Assembly (NCBI GenBank): GCA_029932675.1
Contig: JAOZPP010000064.1
Location: 1 to 19,478 of the forward strand
Length of the DNA: 19,478 bases
Origin: a bacterium
Lineage (GTDB): Bacteria > SM23-81 > DAOVCL01
Direction: 5' to 3'
Under the pieces are notes generated by a model. It was not told the origin of the DNA. It did not search any database and was given only the letters and a program-made list of their open reading frames with translations. Below, piece by piece: positions 3,195 through 19,478 of the stretch. Each line of letters begins with the position of its first letter. Positions within the stretch are counted from its first letter, which is position 1. Position numbers and translations under genes: made by a program.

Positions 3195-3238
3195 GTTAGT
3201 TGGGGCGATTTTGTGCCCGTAAACAAGGAGGTTTTCAG

Positions 3239-4531
3239 ATGAAAAGGGCAATAACCTTCGGATGCTGGTCCCTTGTAGTGCTCTTTATGAGTGCCAGCGC
3301 ATTTGCCTGGGGATCGGCGACTCATGCCTATTTCGCCAAGGAGCTTGGTGAAAAATGGGGGTATTTGAACCTTCAGGAGATCTATGGCTCAATGCTCCCC
3401 GATATGTTTAACCTTATGTATGGTTCACCTTACAAGGACTTCTTGTGGTATGAGACCCACTATGAGTTTGACAGGGTAGTGGAAGGAGCTTGGGGAAGGG
3501 GGCTAAGGGCCTTTGCCTATGGCTTTGTCAGCCATAACGATGCTTGGGGGGCTGACTATACTGCTCACCATAATGCTCAAGCTACTGAGGAGTTTCCAGA
3601 GAAGGGCTATATAATTGCCAAAAGGGACGAATTAGCCCCTCAGTTGGTGCCAAAGGTCAAGGACTTCTTGGTTAACTCCGGTGTGCCCCCTGAGGTAGCT
3701 CAAGCTCTGGCCATGGAACTTGCTCCTGGGTTGGCCGAGAACTTCGTGGAGACCGCAATAGATATATTAATCAAGCGGAACGAAGATCCCGCGGTAGGAT
3801 TAAGGATACTGCTTTCGGCTCAACTGCGCAGCTTTGGAGTCCCTTTCTTATTGACTAAGGCCTATGCAAGGGAGTTTGCTGAGGAGTTCAATTTGCCACT
3901 CAGGGAAGCGAGCCAGATGATCATTGGAGCTGAGCGGAATTTTCGGGAGCTGATGAAGTTTTATGGAGGGGTATTAATCAAAAGCGAGCCAGAGGCAATC
4001 AACCTCCTGGCAGTTCAAGGAGCTACCCTTGCCGAATCCTTTCTTCAGACCGCAACCGGGTATGAGGTGGCGGTGCCGCCGGAAAGCATAGCGGTGATCC
4101 TTCGTGATTATGCCATCCCCTTAGTTGAGGCCGACTATGCAGAAGAGGTATCGGCTACATTGGCCTATCTTGAAGAACAGATGGCCAAGGGAGGGATAAG
4201 TGGTGGTTCTTCTCCTTTCGCTTTCCGGACCAATGCCAAACCTGAGACGGAAGCCGAAAGGGGAACGGCAGGGTTTCGCTTGGAGCAGAACCGGCCCAAC
4301 CCCTTTAACCCAACTACCACCATAGGCTATTTTCTCCCTCAGGAGGTCCATGTGAGGGTAGTGGTTTACAACTCCCTCGGCCAAGAGGTAGATGTCCTCG
4401 TGGACGCAGATCAATCAAGAGGGTATCATGGGGTTACTTGGAATGGCAGTGGTTTGGCCAGTGGTCCCTATTTCTACCGTATAGAGGCAGGGGACTTTAA
4501 AGCATCTAAGAGGATGTTCTTGTTAAAGTAG
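3239..4531 (+). CDS. Secreted zinc-phospholipase-C/S1-P1-like protein with T9SS sorting domain
   Basis: The start is ATG 3239, 8 nt after AAGGAGG (3225-3231), giving 430 aa. Residues 1-23 are a signal peptide ending SASAFA, and the mature protein would begin with Trp24 (WGSATH). In zinc-dependent phospholipase C a mature N-terminal Trp binds zinc through its backbone. Other likely ligands are His29, Asp55, His74, His99, Asp106 and His110 in a helical domain. The last ~80 residues are a Por/type IX sorting domain: N-x-PNPFNPTTTIGY, YNSLGQEV, GYHGVTWNG, SGPYFYRIEAG, RMFLLK. The protein is thus predicted to cross the inner membrane by Sec and the outer membrane by T9SS. Substrate is unknown; a phosphoesterase role is inferred only from the metal-site pattern. 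It stands alone, with a possible structured leader, and converges on the radical SAM gene. Confidence 0.8.
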   Translation: MKRAITFGCWSLVVLFMSASAFAWGSATHAYFAKELGEKWGYLNLQEIYGSMLPDMFNLMYGSPYKDFLWYETHYEFDRVVEGAWGRGLRAFAYGFVSHNDAWGADYTAHHNAQATEEFPEKGYIIAKRDELAPQLVPKVKDFLVNSGVPPEVAQALAMELAPGLAENFVETAIDILIKRNEDPAVGLRILLSAQLRSFGVPFLLTKAYAREFAEEFNLPLREASQMIIGAERNFRELMKFYGGVLIKSEPEAINLLAVQGATLAESFLQTATGYEVAVPPESIAVILRDYAIPLVEADYAEEVSATLAYLEEQMAKGGISGGSSPFAFRTNAKPETEAERGTAGFRLEQNRPNPFNPTTTIGYFLPQEVHVRVVVYNSLGQEVDVLVDADQSRGYHGVTWNGSGLASGPYFYRIEAGDFKASKRMFLLK

Positions 4532-9879: not shown

Positions 9880-9908
9880 GCACCCCAAAGAGGGGACAAT
9901 CAGTTAAG
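9880..9908 (+). repeat. Right inverted repeat of the IS3-family element
   Basis: It begins GCACCCC and contains the orfB stop codon (9900-9902 on the minus strand). The AGT target copy lies immediately outside at 9877-9879. Confidence 0.85.
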
Positions 9909-10856
9909 CAACTTCTGCTCTGATTTGGCCAGTTTTTCTCTGGAAGCTAGGTTTTCCTCAAATTCAACTGGAGGAAGGTAGCCAAGTGACGAATGTAGAC
10001 GCCTTTGGTTATATACCTGCTCCAGGAAATGGCCAATACTCTGCTTGGCCTCGCCTTTGCTCTGGTATTCGCACAGATTAACTTCCTCCGCCTTGAGGGT
10101 CTTAATGAAGCTCTCCGCCTTTGCGTTATCATAGGGGTTAGCCTTGCGGCTCATTGAAATGCGAATATCATGGACCTTGAGCACTTCGATGTATCTGTCA
10201 CATGCATATTGAACCCCTCGGTCGGAGTGGTGGACCAGCCCAGGCTTAACATGACGAGTAGAGAGCGCCATCTGCAGGGCTCCTACCGTGAGCCGGGCAT
10301 CCAAATGCTCCTCCAGCGCCCAGCCAATGACTCTGCGGCTGTAGGCATCCAGGATCACTGCAAGATAGAGAAACTGCTGGGCCAGACGAACGTAGGTGAT
10401 ATCCGCTACCCAGAGTTGATCGATACCGCTCAGATGCAGCTCCGGTACCAGGTTGGGATAACAGGGGATCCTGTGTCGAGAATTTGTGGTAACAGGTACC
10501 CAAGGTCGTCTCTTGCGGAGGCACAGTAGGTTATCCTCTCGCATCAGTCTCAACACCCGTTTGTGGTTGACCTGATATCCCTGGCGTTGCAACTGTTTTG
10601 TCACCCGACGATAACCATAGCCCGGCACCTCCAGGACAATTCGCTGGATCTGGTCCCGCAATATCACCTCCTGGGTCAATCCCCATCTCGGCCTCTGAGA
10701 GCGTTGCCGGTAGAAGTGACTGCGGCCTATCTCCACCAACTCACACATCCGATGGAGAGATAACGGAAACCTGATAGCTTCCTGCATAGTGCTTAACTCC
10801 TCTTCGATTAGGCGATGCATACGGGCTACATATCCTGGACAGCCTTCTCTAAGCAC
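9900..10856 (-). CDS. IS3-family transposase OrfB (rve integrase core)
   Basis: The 318-residue frame has an HTH_21-like segment (residues ~60-118: YGYRRVTKQLQRQGYQVNHKRVLRLM) followed by the DDE integrase core. Catalytic residues are Asp152 (WVADITYV), Asp212 (HHSDRGVQY) and Glu248 (NAKAESFIKTLK), giving 35 residues between the last two as in DD35E enzymes. The C-terminal YNQRRLHSSLGYLPPVEFE is typical. GTG 10856 is the first codon of the track, but the frame is open further upstream to the slippery run, so the active transposase is expected as an OrfAB fusion made by -1 frameshifting. No internal damage is visible. Confidence 0.95.
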   Translation of the reverse strand: MLREGCPGYVARMHRLIEEELSTMQEAIRFPLSLHRMCELVEIGRSHFYRQRSQRPRWGLTQEVILRDQIQRIVLEVPGYGYRRVTKQLQRQGYQVNHKRVLRLMREDNLLCLRKRRPWVPVTTNSRHRIPCYPNLVPELHLSGIDQLWVADITYVRLAQQFLYLAVILDAYSRRVIGWALEEHLDARLTVGALQMALSTRHVKPGLVHHSDRGVQYACDRYIEVLKVHDIRISMSRKANPYDNAKAESFIKTLKAEEVNLCEYQSKGEAKQSIGHFLEQVYNQRRLHSSLGYLPPVEFEENLASREKLAKSEQKLLN

Positions 10857-11122
10857 TCTAAGGCTTTTTTTAAAAAAGCATTCTCCGCCGTCAGTTGGCC
10901 CAGCAATCGCTCCAGCTCTGCGATCTTTGTCTGCTGTCGATACAGATGACCATTGCCCTGGAAGGCTGTATCAGGTTTTTCTCGATACTCCCTTCTCCAA
11001 CGTGCAATAGTAGCAGGGTGTACTTGGTAACTCCGAGATACCTCAGCCAAAGGCCTCTGGGCCTCCAGCTCTCTGATTACCTTAAGCTTGAATTCCCTGG
11101 AGAACCTTCTCCTTTGAGCCAT
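10826..11122 (-). CDS. IS3-family OrfA (HTH DNA-binding subunit)
   Basis: The 98-aa protein opens MAQRRRFSREFKLKVIRELE and has the helix-turn-helix PLAEVSRSYQVHPATIARWRREY, followed by a leucine-zipper-like coiled coil (IAELERLLGQLTAENAFLKKAL). It binds the IS ends and represses or assists transposition. ATG 11122 is preceded by AAGGGGG. It overlaps orfB by 31 bp, with the -1 slippery site inside the overlap region's upstream edge. Confidence 0.93.
   Translation of the reverse strand: MAQRRRFSREFKLKVIRELEAQRPLAEVSRSYQVHPATIARWRREYREKPDTAFQGNGHLYRQQTKIAELERLLGQLTAENAFLKKALECLEKAVQDM
10865..10871 (-). other. -1 ribosomal frameshift heptamer A-AAA-AAA
   Basis: On the minus strand T6 is followed by A7 and then G. 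In the orfA frame this reads TTA-AAA-AAA-GCC, so the heptamer A-AAA-AAA is phased for a -1 slip into the orfB frame, which is open from there without a stop. This is the usual way IS3 elements make the OrfAB transposase. Confidence 0.8.
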
Positions 11123-12149: not shown

Positions 12150-12683
12150 TTACTTTTTATCACTCCATACAATTATTCTCTCGATAGAAACCCCCATGAT
12201 GATTACAAAAATAATTGTTAAGAGAAGCCTCATTGCCATGAATCTTGGTCCAAGAAATTGGAGCTCTACCAGCTCTTGAGGGATCTTGATACATCCCCAG
12301 GCTGAAAGGAAAATAATAATGTTAGAAATACGCGCCCCCTTCTTGAGTAAAACGGAAGCCATAGGGAAAACCACATAAAGAGGACCCGTTGGTAGTGCAC
12401 CCATAAATACAGAGAGAAAAATACCTTTTATTCCAGCACTTTTCCCTAAATATTTCACCACCACTTCCTTTGCCACAAACGCCGCAAAAAGCCCCATCAA
12501 CACCATTACTGCAGGTAGTATCATAATCATTTCAATGAAGAATTCCCGAGAAGCTGTGGTTACCGCTTCTCGCCTATCAGGGAAAATTGATAGCAGAATT
12601 ATCGTAATAAGTAAGGCAATCCCCAAAAGGATTGCATCCCTTATTGTACCTTTTCTTTGTTTTTCTTTTAGAGTCTCTTTCAA
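12150..12683 (-). CDS. Half-size permease, C-terminal-type half (ArsP/YraQ-like)
   Basis: The 177-aa membrane protein has about five spans: ~15-35, ~48-72, ~85-113, ~122-138 and ~150-170. A conserved loop, MGALPTGPLYVVFPMASVLLKKGARISNIIIFLSAWGC, resembles the repeat seen in predicted permeases of the ArsP_1/DUF318 group. The start is TTG 12683, overlapping the stop of the preceding half-gene as TTGA, so translation is likely coupled. It is half the length of the full-size family proteins, and its partner supplies the other half. The substrate is unknown. Confidence 0.7.
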   Translation of the reverse strand: MKETLKEKQRKGTIRDAILLGIALLITIILLSIFPDRREAVTTASREFFIEMIMILPAVMVLMGLFAAFVAKEVVVKYLGKSAGIKGIFLSVFMGALPTGPLYVVFPMASVLLKKGARISNIIIFLSAWGCIKIPQELVELQFLGPRFMAMRLLLTIIFVIIMGVSIERIIVWSDKK

Positions 12684-13144
12684 AGTATCTTTCCCATAAT
12701 AAGTGCAATAGCAATTGCAATGATGAAACTCGTCCCATTTCTGAGTAAAGCCAATTTTTTTCCTAATTCTCTTATCTCTAAGGGTAGGGTAGCCACCCCA
12801 ATCATAGTTAATGTGGTAATAAACACTGCGACTGAAGTAACTGATGCCCCACTTTTAAAAAGCGATGCCGCCAATGGAAATGAAATTAAAGAAGGGATAT
12901 GTAAGATCGCCCCTAATAATGCGATAATGAGTATTCCACAAAACCCTGCCTGTTCACCAACGATCTTGGAAATTTGACTTTGTGGCACGAAACCTAAAAG
13001 CAAGCCAATTAGGATTATGATAATAAGAACCGTGGGAAGGATATGGAAGAATGACTTTAGTGCCACTATTAATGATTGTTTCGCCTTTGTCTGATCTTTA
13101 ACCCAAGCAAAGACCAGGCATCCAAAGGCAAAGATGTTTATCAA
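12680..13144 (-). CDS. Half-size permease, N-terminal-type half (ArsP/YraQ-like)
   Basis: The 154-residue membrane protein has spans near residues 2-14, 32-51, 65-81, 95-115 and 134-152. It carries ILHIPSLISFPLAASLFKSGASVTSVAVFITTLT, the counterpart of the loop in the following gene. The given start is TTG 13144, but the best ribosome site (GGGAGGTG at 13170-13177) is 25 nt upstream of it. The frame is open back to a TGA at 13171, so a rare ATC start at 13165 would fit the spacing and add FHSTAI to the first span. It overlaps the next gene by 4 nt. Confidence 0.68.
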   Translation of the reverse strand: MINIFAFGCLVFAWVKDQTKAKQSLIVALKSFFHILPTVLIIIILIGLLLGFVPQSQISKIVGEQAGFCGILIIALLGAILHIPSLISFPLAASLFKSGASVTSVAVFITTLTMIGVATLPLEIRELGKKLALLRNGTSFIIAIAIALIMGKIL

Positions 13145-14123: not shown

Positions 14124-15002
14124 ATGCTACCCAAGGAGATACTAAAGAAGATCCGCCGCATAGAGATAAGGACAAACAATCTGGTAAATAGCGTCTTCTG
14201 TGGTGAATACCAGAGCGTCTTTAAAGGGCGGGGGATGGAGTTCTCCGAGGTGAGGGAATACCAGCAGGGGGATGATATCAGGACTATCGACTGGAATGTC
14301 ACCGCCAGAATGGGCCATCCCTTCGTCAAGAAGTTTGTAGAGGAGAGGGAACTAACGGTGATGCTCTTAGTGGATGTCAGCTCCTCTGGCGAGTTCGGTA
14401 CGGTGAAGCAGATGAAGGGGGAGATAGCAGTGGAGATCTGTGCGCTTTTGGCCTTCTCTGCCATTAAGAACAACGATAGGGTGGGCCTGATCATCTTCAC
14501 CGACAAGATAGAGAAGTTCATCCCGCCGAAGAAGGGGAGAAAGCACGTCCTCAGGGTGATCAGGGAGTTGCTCTATTTTAAACCGGAAGGCAATCAGACG
14601 GATATCTCTGCAGCGTTGGCCTATCTGCGCAATGTGGTGAACAGGAGGAGCGTGGTCTTCCTTGTCTCCGATTTTATGGCTAAGGGATATGAAAAGGCAC
14701 TCAAGGTTGCTCACCATCGACACGACATAATTGCCATCACCATAACAGACCCCCGGGAGATGGAGCTTCCTAAGTTGGGGTTTATCCAGCTTGAGGATGC
14801 AGAGACGGGGGAGGAGATCCTTATAGACACCTCAGATCCTGAGCTGAGGAGGTCATTCTTGGGAATTTCCTCGAGGGAGAAGGAGGAGAGGGACAGGTTG
14901 TTTAGGTCGATAAATGTCGATCAAATAGACATCACTACGGATAAGTCTTACATTATGCCGTTAATGCAGTTTTTCCGGATGAGGGCGAACAAGTTCCGGT
15001 AG
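14124..15002 (+). CDS. DUF58 (von Willebrand A-like) protein
   Basis: The 292-aa product has the DUF58 signature FKGRGMEFSEVREYQQGDDIRTIDWNVTARMG, then a vWA-like fold with a MIDAS-type DxSxS at Asp84-Ser86-Ser88 (MLLVDVSSSGEF), DRVGLIIFTDKIEKFIPPKKG and FLVSDFM. Family members usually work with MoxR AAA+ ATPases in assembling or maturing envelope or enzyme complexes; no MoxR gene lies in the upstream 384 bp, so a partner would be outside the window. The start at 14124 is preceded by only a weak site. It opens the plus-strand operon and precedes the TPR/SurA-like gene by 14 bp. Confidence 0.9.
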   Translation: MLPKEILKKIRRIEIRTNNLVNSVFCGEYQSVFKGRGMEFSEVREYQQGDDIRTIDWNVTARMGHPFVKKFVEERELTVMLLVDVSSSGEFGTVKQMKGEIAVEICALLAFSAIKNNDRVGLIIFTDKIEKFIPPKKGRKHVLRVIRELLYFKPEGNQTDISAALAYLRNVVNRRSVVFLVSDFMAKGYEKALKVAHHRHDIIAITITDPREMELPKLGFIQLEDAETGEEILIDTSDPELRRSFLGISSREKEERDRLFRSINVDQIDITTDKSYIMPLMQFFRMRANKFR

Positions 15003-15016
15003 GCAAGGGGGGATCG

Positions 15017-15955
15017 ATGTCAGAGAGAAGAGATCTATCCCTTTTTGTGATCATCATCCTGATGCTCGGCTTTCTTATCCTCCTCCAACTAAGGAGTAAG
15101 GGGAGGAGGGAGGGAATCCCCAGCAGAGAGAGCAGAGAATTGGCCAACGAATTGGCCGAGAAGGAGCTATATGAACAGGCCATAGCCGAATATGACCGCT
15201 ACCTCCAGGACCCTACACTTCCTCCCAAGCTGAGGGCCAATACCAACTACTTGGTGGGAAACCTATATATGGAGAAGCTCCATGACTACCGGAACGCTAT
15301 GGCTAGGTACATTAAGGCGAAGTTCCTCTATCCTCAAACCGAATTAAAAAATGAGATTAACCGGAAGATAGTGGAGTGTCTGGAGCGGGTGGGCAGGTCA
15401 TTGGATGCCCAACAGGAGATGGAGAGTGCCACCTCCTTGGGAGGGGAAAAGCCCCAGGGCAGAGGACCCGTGGTGGCCAGGATAGGGCAAAGGGAGATAA
15501 CCTTGGGGGAGCTTAATGATCAGATAGAGAAACTCCCCCCATATATGAGGTCCTCCTTCCAGGAGAGGGAGAAGAAGGTAGAATTTCTCAAACAGTATCT
15601 CGCCACTGAGCTTATGTACGATACAGCGAAGAGGAAGGGGTATGATCGGGACAAGGATATCATCGAAGGGGCATTCCAGGCAAAGAAGAACCTGATGGTA
15701 CAGAAACTCATCCAGGATGAGATAAAGAGTGCCGTCCATATAGATGATTCCGACTTAAGGCTTTACTATGAGGCCCATAGGGATAGGTATGTGGAGGAAA
15801 AAGGGGGCAAGAAGAGGCAGCTTTCCTTTCTCGAGGTGAGGGAGAGGGTAAGGGAAGAGCTAACCCAGGAGAGGGAGAACCAGGCCTATGAGAAGTTGGT
15901 GCAAAGGATGTTGAACGCAGAGGACGTGAGGATATATGATGATTTGGTAAAGTAA
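15017..15955 (+). CDS. Membrane-anchored TPR plus SurA/PpiC N-terminal-like protein without parvulin core
   Basis: The 312-aa product begins with one span at residues 8-24 (LFVIIILMLGFLILLQL) and is predicted to face the periplasm. Residues ~40-140 are TPR-like helices (ELYEQAIAEYDRYLQD, YRNAMARYIKAKFLYP). The next part, from about 152, matches the N-terminal chaperone domain of SurA/PrsA-type peptidyl-prolyl isomerases: VVARIGQREITLGELNDQI, YLATELMYDTAKRKGYDRD, LRLYYEAHRDRY. The chain then passes directly to the C-terminal helix REELTQERENQAYEKLVQRML with no parvulin domain between. It is therefore likely a chaperone-like scaffold. ATG 15017 follows AAGGGGGG, 14 bp after DUF58. Confidence 0.82.
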   Translation: MSERRDLSLFVIIILMLGFLILLQLRSKGRREGIPSRESRELANELAEKELYEQAIAEYDRYLQDPTLPPKLRANTNYLVGNLYMEKLHDYRNAMARYIKAKFLYPQTELKNEINRKIVECLERVGRSLDAQQEMESATSLGGEKPQGRGPVVARIGQREITLGELNDQIEKLPPYMRSSFQEREKKVEFLKQYLATELMYDTAKRKGYDRDKDIIEGAFQAKKNLMVQKLIQDEIKSAVHIDDSDLRLYYEAHRDRYVEEKGGKKRQLSFLEVRERVREELTQERENQAYEKLVQRMLNAEDVRIYDDLVK

Positions 15956-16039
15956 GCTTAAAGTTAGAGATCTCTACCCGTTAGTGGCCCCCTGTAGTTT
16001 AAAAGGGGTAAACCTTAATGAATATAGTAAGGGGGGAAT

Positions 16040-16648
16040 ATGAAAGCGTTAGGGGTAGCTTTTAGTGCTCGCCAGGAGGGAAATTGCCTGAAATCTCTCG
16101 ATTATTGTCTGACCGCTTTAAAGGAGAAGGGTTATAAGGTCAAACTGATAAATGTTTATGATCACCAGATAACCCCTTGCAGTCATTGTGGATATGAGTG
16201 TTTTTCCTCTACAAATGAGGGGAAAACCGCACCCTGTCCCCTCCAGGATGATGTTCCCTGGATCTATCAGATGTGTAAGCAGGCAGATCTGATCCTCTTC
16301 GCCATTCCTACCTATGGAGGGCATCTTTCCAGCCTATATATGGCTTTCGGGGAGAGGGGACAGGCGCAGTTCTCCAGTTGGGAGGAGTTCCGACAAGGTT
16401 TCTCCTCTAAGGTCAATTTGATCATTATAGGGAACCTTAGCTCTGGGGGCGATATGGCCCTGCACGAGGCACTCTCCGACTTCTATAACTTTGAACCATT
16501 CCCCGAAGTTTTGCTCCTTTCGGCCAGGCATTGGGGGAGGAATTCGCTGAAAGGGGACTTAGTGGAGGAACCGGAGATAAAGGGGAGACTAACCCAGTTC
16601 GTTGATCGTATTCTCAGTAGGGAAAAAGAGAAAGGAGGTCAAGATTGA
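16040..16648 (+). CDS. Flavodoxin-fold (NADPH-dependent FMN reductase-like) protein with cysteine motif
   Basis: The 202-aa protein opens with a phosphate-binding pattern for FMN (VAFSARQEGNCLKSLDYCL) and has the flavodoxin-like strand DLILFAIPTYGGHLSSLYMAF followed by NLIIIGNLSSGGDM. A cysteine group, CSHCGYECF plus a later Cys in APCPLQDD, resembles the compact CxxC…C motif of iron-sulfur flavoproteins, though only a cluster-binding role, not activity, can be inferred. ATG 16040 follows GGGGGG. It lies 84 bp after the SurA-like gene and its stop overlaps the ABC ATPase start, which ties it to the export operon. Confidence 0.8.
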   Translation: MKALGVAFSARQEGNCLKSLDYCLTALKEKGYKVKLINVYDHQITPCSHCGYECFSSTNEGKTAPCPLQDDVPWIYQMCKQADLILFAIPTYGGHLSSLYMAFGERGQAQFSSWEEFRQGFSSKVNLIIIGNLSSGGDMALHEALSDFYNFEPFPEVLLLSARHWGRNSLKGDLVEEPEIKGRLTQFVDRILSREKEKGGQD

Positions 16649-17583
16649 TCGAAGTGGAGAACCTAACCAAGTATTATGGCTCGCAGATGGCCATTGAGGA
16701 TGTGAACTTTACGGTGGAGAAGGGGGAGATTTTGGGCTTTTTAGGCCCTAATGCGGCAGGGAAGACCACCACGATGAGGATCCTCACCTGCTATATGCCA
16801 GCCACAAAGGGGACGGCCAGGGTTGCGGGATACGATGTCTTTGAGGATTCCCTCCAGGTAAGGAGGAGAATCGGCTATCTTCCGGAGAACCCACCCCTCT
16901 ACAACGATATGTCGGTGAGCTCCTATTTAGGGTTTGTCTCCAGGATAAAAGGGATAGAGTCCAACCAGAGGGCGAAGAGGGTAGAGGAGGTGATGGAGAG
17001 GTGCAGCATTACAGAAGTAAAGGATAGGGTAATCGGTAAGCTCTCCAAGGGCTACAAACAGAGGGTGGGGTTGGCTCAAGCGTTGATCCATGATCCGGAA
17101 GTCCTTATCTTAGATGAGCCTACCGTGGGCCTTGACCCGAAGCAGATAATCGAGGTGAGGGAACTGATCAAGAGCTTGGGAGGAGATCACACCGTAGTGG
17201 TGAGTTCCCACATCCTTCCCGAGGTCTCTATGACCTGCCAGAGGGTAGTGATCATAAATGAAGGGAAGGTGGTTGCTGAGGATACTCCGGAAAACCTTAC
17301 CGCCAAGCTCAAGGGCTCGGAAAGCATCTATCTGGAGGTTGAAGGCCCTCAGGAGGAGATACTTCAGGCGTTGAAAGGGGTAAAGGGGATCTTGGAAGTA
17401 AAGGCTGAACCCAAAGATGGCCGAAGTGCCTTCTATTTAGAGTCCGAACTGAAGAAGGACATCCGCAGGGAGCTCTCCTCTCTGATCGTGGGTAAGGGAT
17501 GGGGGCTATATGAGATAAGGTCGCGGGGGATGAGCTTAGAGGAGATCTTCCTCCATCTTACTACTAAGGAAGAGGAGGTGTAA
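16645..17583 (+). CDS. ABC transporter ATPase, GldA/NatA-like
   Basis: The 312-aa ATPase has Walker A GPNAAGKTT (residues 34-42, with Ala in place of the usual Gly at the fourth position), IGYLPENPPLYND at the Q-loop region, the signature LSKGYKQR, Walker B VLILDEPTVGLDP and the switch His in VVSSHILPEVS. A C-terminal extension of about 90 residues follows, as in gliding-type and drug/Na+ exporter ATPases. The start is TTG 16645, overlapping the flavodoxin stop (TTGA), with AAAGGAGG upstream. It pairs with the permease 3 bp downstream and should energise export of an unidentified substrate. Confidence 0.93.
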   Translation: MIEVENLTKYYGSQMAIEDVNFTVEKGEILGFLGPNAAGKTTTMRILTCYMPATKGTARVAGYDVFEDSLQVRRRIGYLPENPPLYNDMSVSSYLGFVSRIKGIESNQRAKRVEEVMERCSITEVKDRVIGKLSKGYKQRVGLAQALIHDPEVLILDEPTVGLDPKQIIEVRELIKSLGGDHTVVVSSHILPEVSMTCQRVVIINEGKVVAEDTPENLTAKLKGSESIYLEVEGPQEEILQALKGVKGILEVKAEPKDGRSAFYLESELKKDIRRELSSLIVGKGWGLYEIRSRGMSLEEIFLHLTTKEEEV

Positions 17584-17586
17584 AGG

Positions 17587-18366
17587 ATGAGGAACATAGG
17601 AGCCATTTTCGGAAAGGAGATGAAATCGTATTTTGTCTCCCCAATTGCCTATGTGGTGATCGCGGTATTTCTGGTGATCTCCGGCTACTTCTTCTATGGG
17701 ATGCTCTCCAGCTTTGTGCAGCTCTGCATTAGAGCTAACCTCCAGGCTCACTACTACCGGATGGCCCCTCCCAAGCTCAATGTGAACGAGTGGGTGATTA
17801 GGCCACTCTTTCACAATTTGAGTGTAATAGGCATCTTTATGCTCCCCTTAATAACTATGAGGCTCTACTCCGAGGAGAAGAGGTCGGGAACGATTGAGCT
17901 TCTCTTGACCTCTCCCATCACCCGAGTAGAGACCTTGTTGGGGAAGTTCTTAGCCGCTTTAGCCCTTTATGGGATAATGATAGGCGCTACTCTCCTCCAT
18001 CAGGTTTTCCTCTTCGGCTATGGGAACCCGGAAGGGGGGCCAGTCCTCTCTGGGTATATTGGCCTGTTGTTGGAAGGTGCGGCCTTCCTCTCCGTTGGGC
18101 TTCTCATCTCCTCCCTCACCAAGAACCAGATTATTGCCGCAGTAGGGAGCTTCGGCGCCTTCCTCATCCTCTGGGCCATTGGTTGGTTAGCTGATTCCAC
18201 CGGTCCGGGGTTAGGGAAGGTTCTCTCCTCTTTATCGCTTATCGAGCACTTCGACAATTTTTCTAAGGGGATAATAGACACTGGTGATCTGATCTTCTAT
18301 CTATCCTTTATCTTCTTGGGTCTATTTCTGACCTATAGGTCAGTGGAATCAGAAAGGTGGAGGTAA
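17587..18366 (+). CDS. ABC-2 type permease, GldF-like
   Basis: The 259-aa membrane protein starts MRNIGAIFGKEMKSYFVSPIAYVVIAVFLVI, the usual N-terminal cytoplasmic helix and first span of ABC-2 permeases, and has six spans in all. Typical features are the long extracytoplasmic loop (LQAHYYRMAPPKLNVNEWVIRPLF), the conserved EEKRSGTIELLLTSPIT at residues ~97-115 and a final WAIGWLADSTGPG segment. ATG 17587 lies 3 bp after the ATPase stop, and the GldG-like gene begins 1 bp after this stop. Together the three make a gliding-type ABC complex; despite the name, such sets occur in non-gliding bacteria. Confidence 0.92.
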   Translation: MRNIGAIFGKEMKSYFVSPIAYVVIAVFLVISGYFFYGMLSSFVQLCIRANLQAHYYRMAPPKLNVNEWVIRPLFHNLSVIGIFMLPLITMRLYSEEKRSGTIELLLTSPITRVETLLGKFLAALALYGIMIGATLLHQVFLFGYGNPEGGPVLSGYIGLLLEGAAFLSVGLLISSLTKNQIIAAVGSFGAFLILWAIGWLADSTGPGLGKVLSSLSLIEHFDNFSKGIIDTGDLIFYLSFIFLGLFLTYRSVESERWR

Positions 18367-18367
18367 G

Positions 18368-19478
18368 ATGAAGAAGAGAATTGATCTAATTATGCTCTCG
18401 GGAGGTATCCTCATAATCGTTGGCCTATTGGTATTCGGCATCTTGGGAAAGATGACCATTATCCCTGCGGCTATCCTCCTGGTGGGTTTAGGGCTTTTCT
18501 GCTTCATCATTATAGCTAACTTTGAGGCAGTAAGGAGAGTCCTGAAGGGTAGGTCTTTAAAGTATGGGGTAAATGCGGTGATAATTACCCTCTTTATGAT
18601 CGGGATTTTGGTCTTTATTAACCTGCTGGCCATAAGGCATCATCATCGCTGGGATCTAACCCATGCGAGGAGGTTCAGCCTATCGGACAAAACCGTTAAG
18701 GTGCTCAAATCCCTGGATAGGGATGTCCTCATCTCCGCCTTCTTTAAGGGGGAGGAGAGGAAGTTAGCGGATCTTCTCTCCCAGTATTCCTATCGTTCAC
18801 CCAAGGTGAAATATAGGTTCATCGATCCGGATAAGGAGCCCGGACTTACCCGGAGGTACGGGGTCACCTCCTACGGCACGGTGGTAGTGGAATGTGGAGA
18901 GAAGGAGGAGAAATTAGATCAGGCCACGGAATCTGAGTTAACCAATGCTATCCTCAAGGTCTCCCGGAAGGGGAAGAAGGTCATCTATTTCTTGACCGGA
19001 CATGGGGAGAGGGACATCGAGTCTACCGATCCCCAAGGTTACAATAAGGCAAAGAAATCAATAGAGGCAGAGAACTATGAGGTTAAGACCCTCCTCTTGG
19101 CCAGGGAGAAGGAGATTCCGGACGATTGTGCTGTCTTGGTGGTGGCGGGTCCCCAGAAGCAATTCTTCGCGGACGAAGCTAAGACTATAGCGGAGTATCT
19201 GAAGAAAGGGGGGAAAGCGTTCTTTATGCTTGATCCCCCACCCGCTTTGGGGCTGGAGGATTTTATGGGGGATTGGGGCTTGAGGATCGGGAAGGATATA
19301 GTCTTAGATGCCAGTGGGGTGGGAAGACTATTTGGTGCCGGTCCAGCGATGCCCTTAGTGAACAATTATGGCAGACATGCCATAACCAAAGGGTTTAATT
19401 TGATGACCTTCTTTCCTGAGGTGAGATCAGTTACTCCGGAGGAGAAGCCTGGACCAGGATTAGAGGTCACCTCCCTGG
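18368..19478 (+). CDS. GldG-like ABC auxiliary protein (3' end beyond window)
   Basis: The frame is open from ATG 18368 to the end of the window (370 codons). Three hydrophobic segments lie at residues ~7-27, ~31-51 and ~64-85. They are followed by a large extracytoplasmic part with the family start LTHARRFSLSDKTVKVLKSLDRDVLISAFFKG. Further family blocks are VVVECGEKEEKLDQATESELTNAIL, VIYFLTGHGERDI, and a beta-strand region with VLVVAGP and YLKKGGKAFFMLDPPP. This matches the ABC_transp_aux/GldG family associated with GldA and GldF. The usual partner downstream (often DUF4340) would lie outside. Confidence 0.9.
   Translation, partial: MKKRIDLIMLSGGILIIVGLLVFGILGKMTIIPAAILLVGLGLFCFIIIANFEAVRRVLKGRSLKYGVNAVIITLFMIGILVFINLLAIRHHHRWDLTHARRFSLSDKTVKVLKSLDRDVLISAFFKGEERKLADLLSQYSYRSPKVKYRFIDPDKEPGLTRRYGVTSYGTVVVECGEKEEKLDQATESELTNAILKVSRKGKKVIYFLTGHGERDIESTDPQGYNKAKKSIEAENYEVKTLLLAREKEIPDDCAVLVVAGPQKQFFADEAKTIAEYLKKGGKAFFMLDPPPALGLEDFMGDWGLRIGKDIVLDASGVGRLFGAGPAMPLVNNYGRHAITKGFNLMTFFPEVRSVTPEEKPGPGLEVTSL

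Follow-up and report, generated by a model that had tools for sequence, protein, structure and literature searches.

A membrane-anchored TPR-SurA-like gene recurs in MoxR-DUF58-Bat operons: a dispersed example with a Gld-type ABC module

Operons that combine MoxR, DUF58 and Bat (Bacteroides aerotolerance) genes, as in B. fragilis, Leptospira, Riemerella and Francisella, are widespread, and their function is unsettled (PMC3557215). In a view quoted in that paper, MoxR ATPases are chaperones that may insert metal into the metal ion-dependent adhesion site (MIDAS) of von Willebrand factor A (VWA) proteins. In archaea, a predicted secretion or remodelling complex of the GldG-like arCOG01314 with a vWA protein and a MoxR ATPase is outlined by Makarova et al. 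(2015, PMC5898192). A third point of comparison is the inner-membrane chaperone pair YfgM–PpiD at SecYEG of E. coli (PMC9643414). Here we describe a locus on a stretch of 19,478 nucleotides (nt), referred to below as the window, which is contig C50 (JAOZPP010000064.1) of the bacterial assembly GCA_029932675.1 (GTDB lineage SM23-81; DAOVCL01), a genome in 116 contigs that is 97% complete. Its right-hand end encodes a DUF58 protein, a protein with a transmembrane (TM) anchor, tetratricopeptide repeats (TPR) and a SurA-like core (TM-TPR-SurA), a flavoprotein and a GldA/GldF/GldG-like ABC module. We think it probable that this block is the middle of a dispersed MoxR-DUF58-Bat operon with a Gld-type ABC module, in which TM-TPR-SurA is an optional chaperone subunit and the flavoprotein gene an insertion. 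All the genes named in the original prediction, which was made from the window alone, were found where it had placed them:

14124..15002, + strand: DUF58 (VWA-type), 292 amino acids (aa); PF01882, 2e-87
15017..15955, + strand: TM-TPR-SurA-like chaperone gene, 312 aa, inner-membrane anchor predicted; identified by model, profile and neighbourhood
15956..16039, + strand: gap of 84 nt from the SurA-like gene to the flavodoxin-like gene
16040..16648, + strand: FMN_red/flavodoxin-like gene, 202 aa; PF03358, 4.7e-14
16645..17583, + strand: GldA-like ABC ATPase, TTG start
17587..18366, + strand: GldF-like ABC-2 permease
18368..19478, + strand: GldG-like ABC_transp_aux/DUF7088, cut at the contig end, the rest lying on contig C82 (L004:1-474)

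The arrangement from DUF58 to GldG is not a matter of chance, since homologous blocks are present in many distant genomes. The DUF58 protein retains the MIDAS-like residues DVSSS ... T ... D. Scans for promoters and terminators near the window genes gave results at chance level.

The recurrence of the chaperone gene was followed in a sample of 386 genomes, four of them from this phylum, with a profile built from two sequences (those of the window and of genome G006). The full TPR plus SurA architecture was found in 28 genomes, and in 26 of these the gene lies directly downstream of a DUF58 orthologue and on the same strand, with 15–304 nt between the ends of the two matches. Around these copies the order is a short BatD-type gene, MoxR, DUF58 and TPR-SurA, and then either short BatD-type and BatA genes or the GldAFG-DUF4340 module. 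One single-contig genome, G061 (locus L087), has MoxR-DUF58-TPR-SurA-GldA-GldF-GldG-DUF4340-BatDs-BatA-BatB in a single run, which is the order of the window without the flavodoxin gene. Named contigs that bear the block belong to Zixibacteria and UBP14. The original prediction had made its case depend on whether the SurA-like and flavodoxin genes keep their position in relatives, and the two have fared differently: the SurA-like gene stands there in 26 of the 195 genomes with a DUF58 orthologue (E<=1e-50), but none of the relatives has the flavodoxin gene in its block. The gene following DUF58 is in many genomes BatD-type or GldA instead, and the chaperone is therefore an optional part. On this comparison of gene neighbourhoods, the SurA-like gene is a genuine recurring component of the MoxR/DUF58/Bat operon.

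The TPR-SurA protein might instead be a general periplasmic holdase that is merely co-transcribed with the Bat genes and linked to them neither physically nor functionally. Its optional occurrence and the generic nature of the SurA core would suit this explanation, as would the further SurA/PpiD-type genes of the same genome, which stand in tandem on contig C8. Placement immediately after DUF58 in 26 of 28 cases, which come from many families and no fewer than two phyla, nevertheless exceeds what is usual for random neighbours, and we consider the explanation unlikely. A small gene for a TPR lipoprotein-like product is often present 5' of the short BatD-type gene upstream of MoxR in relatives (L087:5930-6553, L083:12019-12519, L085:5989-6396 and L092:6099-6542); its product resembles the TPR portion of the TPR-SurA protein.

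The TM anchor, the TPR and the SurA-like core are predicted to lie in one chain. The full AlphaFold2 model (predicted local distance difference test score, pLDDT, 88) has one TM helix, three TPR hairpins (helices 36-142) and a SurA core, whose C-terminal helix is long. Because searches with the full model in Foldseek and VIA-align returned TPR proteins only, the core was modelled separately (pLDDT 94). This core model aligns with the SurA-like chaperone PEB4 (3rfw, residues 22-273) over 156 of 167 residues with a Z score of 10.9 and a root-mean-square deviation of 3.2, through the N-domain and the C-terminal helix and bypassing the parvulin domain that intervenes in PEB4; its Foldseek E-value is weak (0.012). 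A profile search of the PDB reached PEB4 at 3.7e-18 and also HP0175, and SurA_N_3 is matched in 12 of the 20 members of the alignment. The models, the PEB4 match and the profile thus agree on a core of SurA N-domain and C-terminal helix. PEB4 and HP0175 share this fold with the window protein (Z 10.9 and 9.3, respectively) but differ from it in having a parvulin domain, and no TPR part was aligned in either.

The parvulin peptidyl-prolyl isomerase (PPIase) domain is undetectable in 17 of the 20 members. In the window protein, Rotamase_2 scores 20.7 bits against a cut-off of 27 and over the first half of the domain only, and the model has a short hairpin in the parvulin position. A PPIC domain is significant in the members from G061 (9.6e-21) and G231 (2.2e-12) and marginal in a third. 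In the tree the window protein pairs (support 87/81) with the G061 member, which has a PPIase domain; the members with this domain do not group together, so the domain has been lost or gained more than once. Loss of the domain is consistent with what has been found for E. coli SurA by experiment: there the core of N- and C-terminal parts provides most of the activity, largely without the PPIase domains (PMC2556385).

How these proteins might work together can be sketched. The cytoplasmic AAA+ ATPase MoxR and the VWA protein DUF58 would act from inside, on the membrane VWA proteins BatA and BatB, on BatD-type beta proteins and, where it is present, on the GldAFG/DUF4340 exporter. TM-TPR-SurA would form the periplasmic arm, its SurA core holding unfolded chains that are emerging or awaiting assembly and its TPR docking it to the complex, much as the TPR protein YfgM and the SurA-like PpiD come together at SecYEG. 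Prolyl isomerisation would be dispensable, because the parvulin domain is retained in a few members only. We infer a periplasmic topology, complex formation and such clients for the protein, and with them a function within the Bat system; by analogy it would have holdase or chaperone activity on unfolded envelope proteins. The likeness to YfgM–PpiD would lie in the TM anchor, the presumed periplasmic location and the combination of TPR with a SurA-like chaperone core. The differences are that E. coli uses two proteins where one chain is found here, that PpiD keeps its parvulin domain and that the linked genes are not the same. A bolder proposal, which we offer tentatively as a possibility, is that the MoxR-Bat-Gld cluster is one ATP-driven machine for envelope assembly or export, in which TM-TPR-SurA would be the periplasmic subunit dedicated to holding clients, equivalent to YfgM–PpiD in a single chain but mostly lacking parvulin. 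The suggestion first made for this locus, an export machine that includes a folding step, is plausible but unproven.

The locus agrees with the known Bat operons in the order MoxR, DUF58, BatA, BatB, BatC, BatD seen in relatives, and in the BatD-type and BatA genes on the continuation of the window. It differs from them in the GldAFG-DUF4340 module and TM-TPR-SurA after DUF58, and in the splitting of the operon over three places in this genome. Like the archaeal complex, it brings together in one locus a membrane-anchored protein related to GldG, a vWA protein and an ATPase of the MoxR family; the passages that describe that complex mention no SurA-type chaperone, and the archaeal surface is without such a periplasm (PMC5898192). 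The best reading is that TM-TPR-SurA is a new, optional chaperone subunit, whereas the MoxR-Bat(-Gld) envelope machine itself is already known but unexplained. A search of open-licence papers turned up none that joins MoxR, DUF58 and SurA, nor one that joins Zixibacteria with MoxR. For operons as widespread as these, a recurrent and tightly placed periplasmic chaperone gene offers a concrete handle, of which the papers searched gave no other example, linking them to an inner-membrane process of protein folding or export; if the proposal is true, the Bat system would be a protein-folding or export device and not an oxygen-tolerance pathway as such.

The absence of MoxR beside DUF58, on which the original prediction had remarked, holds for the window contig, where no MoxR gene is found, but not for the system, as in almost all of the relatives inspected MoxR is the gene directly before DUF58. 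The genome has two MoxR genes on other contigs. That on contig C73 is the orthologue, with 78–82% identity to the DUF58-adjoining MoxR of G003 and G061; it is preceded by a BatD-type gene (BatDs2-MoxR) and followed directly after its stop codon by a terminator-like hairpin. The other, on contig C59, is accompanied by a paralogous DUF58 gene and a VWA gene. A MoxR-independent DUF58 system is rejected in view of the orthologue on C73.

To the right, C82 is the sole contig of the genome that continues the window, its first bases being an exact copy of the last 55 bp. Joining the two gives GldG as one open frame of 509 aa, followed by DUF4340, as the original prediction had anticipated, and then by a short BatD-type gene and BatA. 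Contig C61 has the row BatB-BatC-BatD-LepB-TPR/SH3, in which the LepB-like gene is an insertion, so that VWA proteins of the BatA/BatB type and BatD-type proteins are both encoded in the genome; no sequence overlap was found between C82 and C61. Immediately 5' of the displaced BatB-BatC-BatD genes is a gene for a retropepsin-like aspartyl protease (PF13650; L109:558-971, G000:C61).

These positions indicate an operon dispersed over at least three places of this genome (C73, C50/C82 and C61), and the lack of MoxR next to DUF58 is therefore a local, lineage-specific break. The undivided form can be seen in G003, a member of the same phylum, where MoxR-DUF58-GldA-GldF-GldG-DUF4340-BatD-BatA-BatB-BatC-BatD-TPR/SH3 stand in a single run. 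Judged from the relatives, the ancestral order was probably BatD-short, MoxR, DUF58, TM-TPR-SurA, GldA, GldF, GldG, DUF4340, BatD-short, BatA, BatB, BatC, BatD, TPR-SH3. The TPR-SurA gene is missing from the G003 block, where about 30 nt separate DUF58 and GldA; its loss there is the simpler explanation, though not a proven one. The idea that TPR-SurA and the operon were acquired together, by horizontal transfer from a donor resembling G061, is unsupported, because MoxR, DUF58, BatA and BatB are slightly nearer to G061 but GldA, GldF and GldG are nearer to G003.

Besides the G003 block, several observations weigh against an optional chaperone subunit in a dispersed Bat operon. The frequency of TPR-SurA among the genomes with a DUF58 orthologue is about 13%, and both sequences behind the detection profile are operon-linked, which favours linked copies in the count. 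SurA-type cores are hard to separate from their PrsA and PpiD relatives on sequence alone. In the window the SurA-like gene is followed by the 84-nt gap and no longer stands with MoxR, BatB and BatC, its partners in the ancestral operon; its co-expression is therefore not assured here. All genomes of the phylum are fragmented assemblies, and the breaks, as well as the deletion in a congener described below, could for this reason be partly artefacts of assembly.

The flavoprotein calls for separate treatment. Its match to PF03358 reaches 52.7 bits (56.4 in the congener G001) against a cut-off of 24. It belongs to the fold family of NADPH-dependent FMN reductases and Cd1-type flavoproteins (PF03358; 7d38) and has, like them, a Cys-containing loop before a conserved DD; it departs from them in its cysteine spacing, CX2CX3CX11C in the window protein, and its PDB match is weak (2e-6). 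All four Cys are conserved in both species, though with longer spacing than in the compact motif by which iron-sulfur flavoproteins bind a 4Fe-4S cluster. The only counterpart is that of G001 (78% identity), and none of the 384 sampled genomes outside the genus has one (E<=1e-12). In G001 some 4.2 kb (GldA-GldF-GldG-DUF4340) have been deleted, and the junction bears a short shared AGAT; codons 1–29 of GldA continue in frame as the final part of DUF4340 in one fusion ORF, a likely deletion scar (L110:863-1318, G001:C126), after which comes a truncated BatD-type gene. No GldF gene is found in the G001 genome. Homology between the window and G001 begins near position 16019, about 20 bases 5' of the flavoprotein start, and hence the SurA-like gene is not upstream of the flavoprotein in the congener; no DUF58 gene is upstream of it there either.

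The whole block, flavodoxin included, might be a single export machine that has a redox step, as first suggested; electrons from the flavoprotein would then hold exported chains or Bat proteins in a reduced state. The flavoprotein stop does overlap the ATPase start by 4 nt (TTGA), the ribosome-binding sequence of the ATPase, AAAGGAGGT, lies within the 3' end of the FMN_red gene, and the overlap is preserved in G001; a proposal by Tang et al., quoted in PMC3557215, that Bat proteins export reducing power points the same way. In G003, however, whose block has no flavodoxin gene, GldA has this TTG start and this ribosome-binding sequence too, and the overlap is thus a product of the way in which the inserted gene was joined to a GldA that was already there. 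The predicted protein, moreover, starts directly with its flavodoxin-like fold, no export signal being seen in the sequence, and in G001 the gene is intact after the ABC genes were deleted, which means that it is kept without the machine. Redox-coupled export, which we regard as very improbable, is rejected because the flavoprotein occurs in two genomes of a single genus only and has survived the loss of the ABC genes in one of them; the redox step first suggested is not supported. The gene is best seen, from these comparisons, as a recent, genus-specific insertion in front of GldA and not as part of the machine. The missing MoxR and the flavodoxin gene, the two misleading cues of the window, are both accidents of lineage.

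The best NCBIfam matches of the ABC module are GldA, GldF and GldG, and the block could on that account be a locus for gliding or for type IX secretion, with a gliding-motility ABC transporter. In Flavobacterium, GldF and GldG are required to bring GldA to the membrane (PMC9127263). SprA, the translocon of type IX secretion, has a gene in this genome, as in the other three of the phylum (G000:C25, G001:C173, G002:C258 and G003:C94), and a secreted protein at 3200-4531 of the window has a Por_Secre_tail-like C-terminal sorting domain, just below the curated cut-off. The scores are, however, well under the curated equivalog cut-offs (329.5 of 402.6, 156.2 of 288.5 and 85.9 of 389.9 bits for GldA, GldF and GldG, the last being cut by the contig end), and the observed linkage is to Bat genes. 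G001 and G002 encode SprA and lack GldF, so SprA and GldF do not go together. The GldL model gave no match, which is uninformative as the controls gave none either. A gliding locus, improbable in our estimate, is rejected because the curated cut-offs are not reached.

Transposase genes, of the DDE_Tnp_1_6 type at 1-783 of the window and an IS3-type orfA/orfB pair at 9900-11122, are present in this region of the broken-up operon. At 12150-12683 and 12680-13144, on the - strand, two overlapping half-length genes match the ArsP_1 permease model (PF03773), both of them over its first half, as though a permease that normally has two repeats were divided between two genes.

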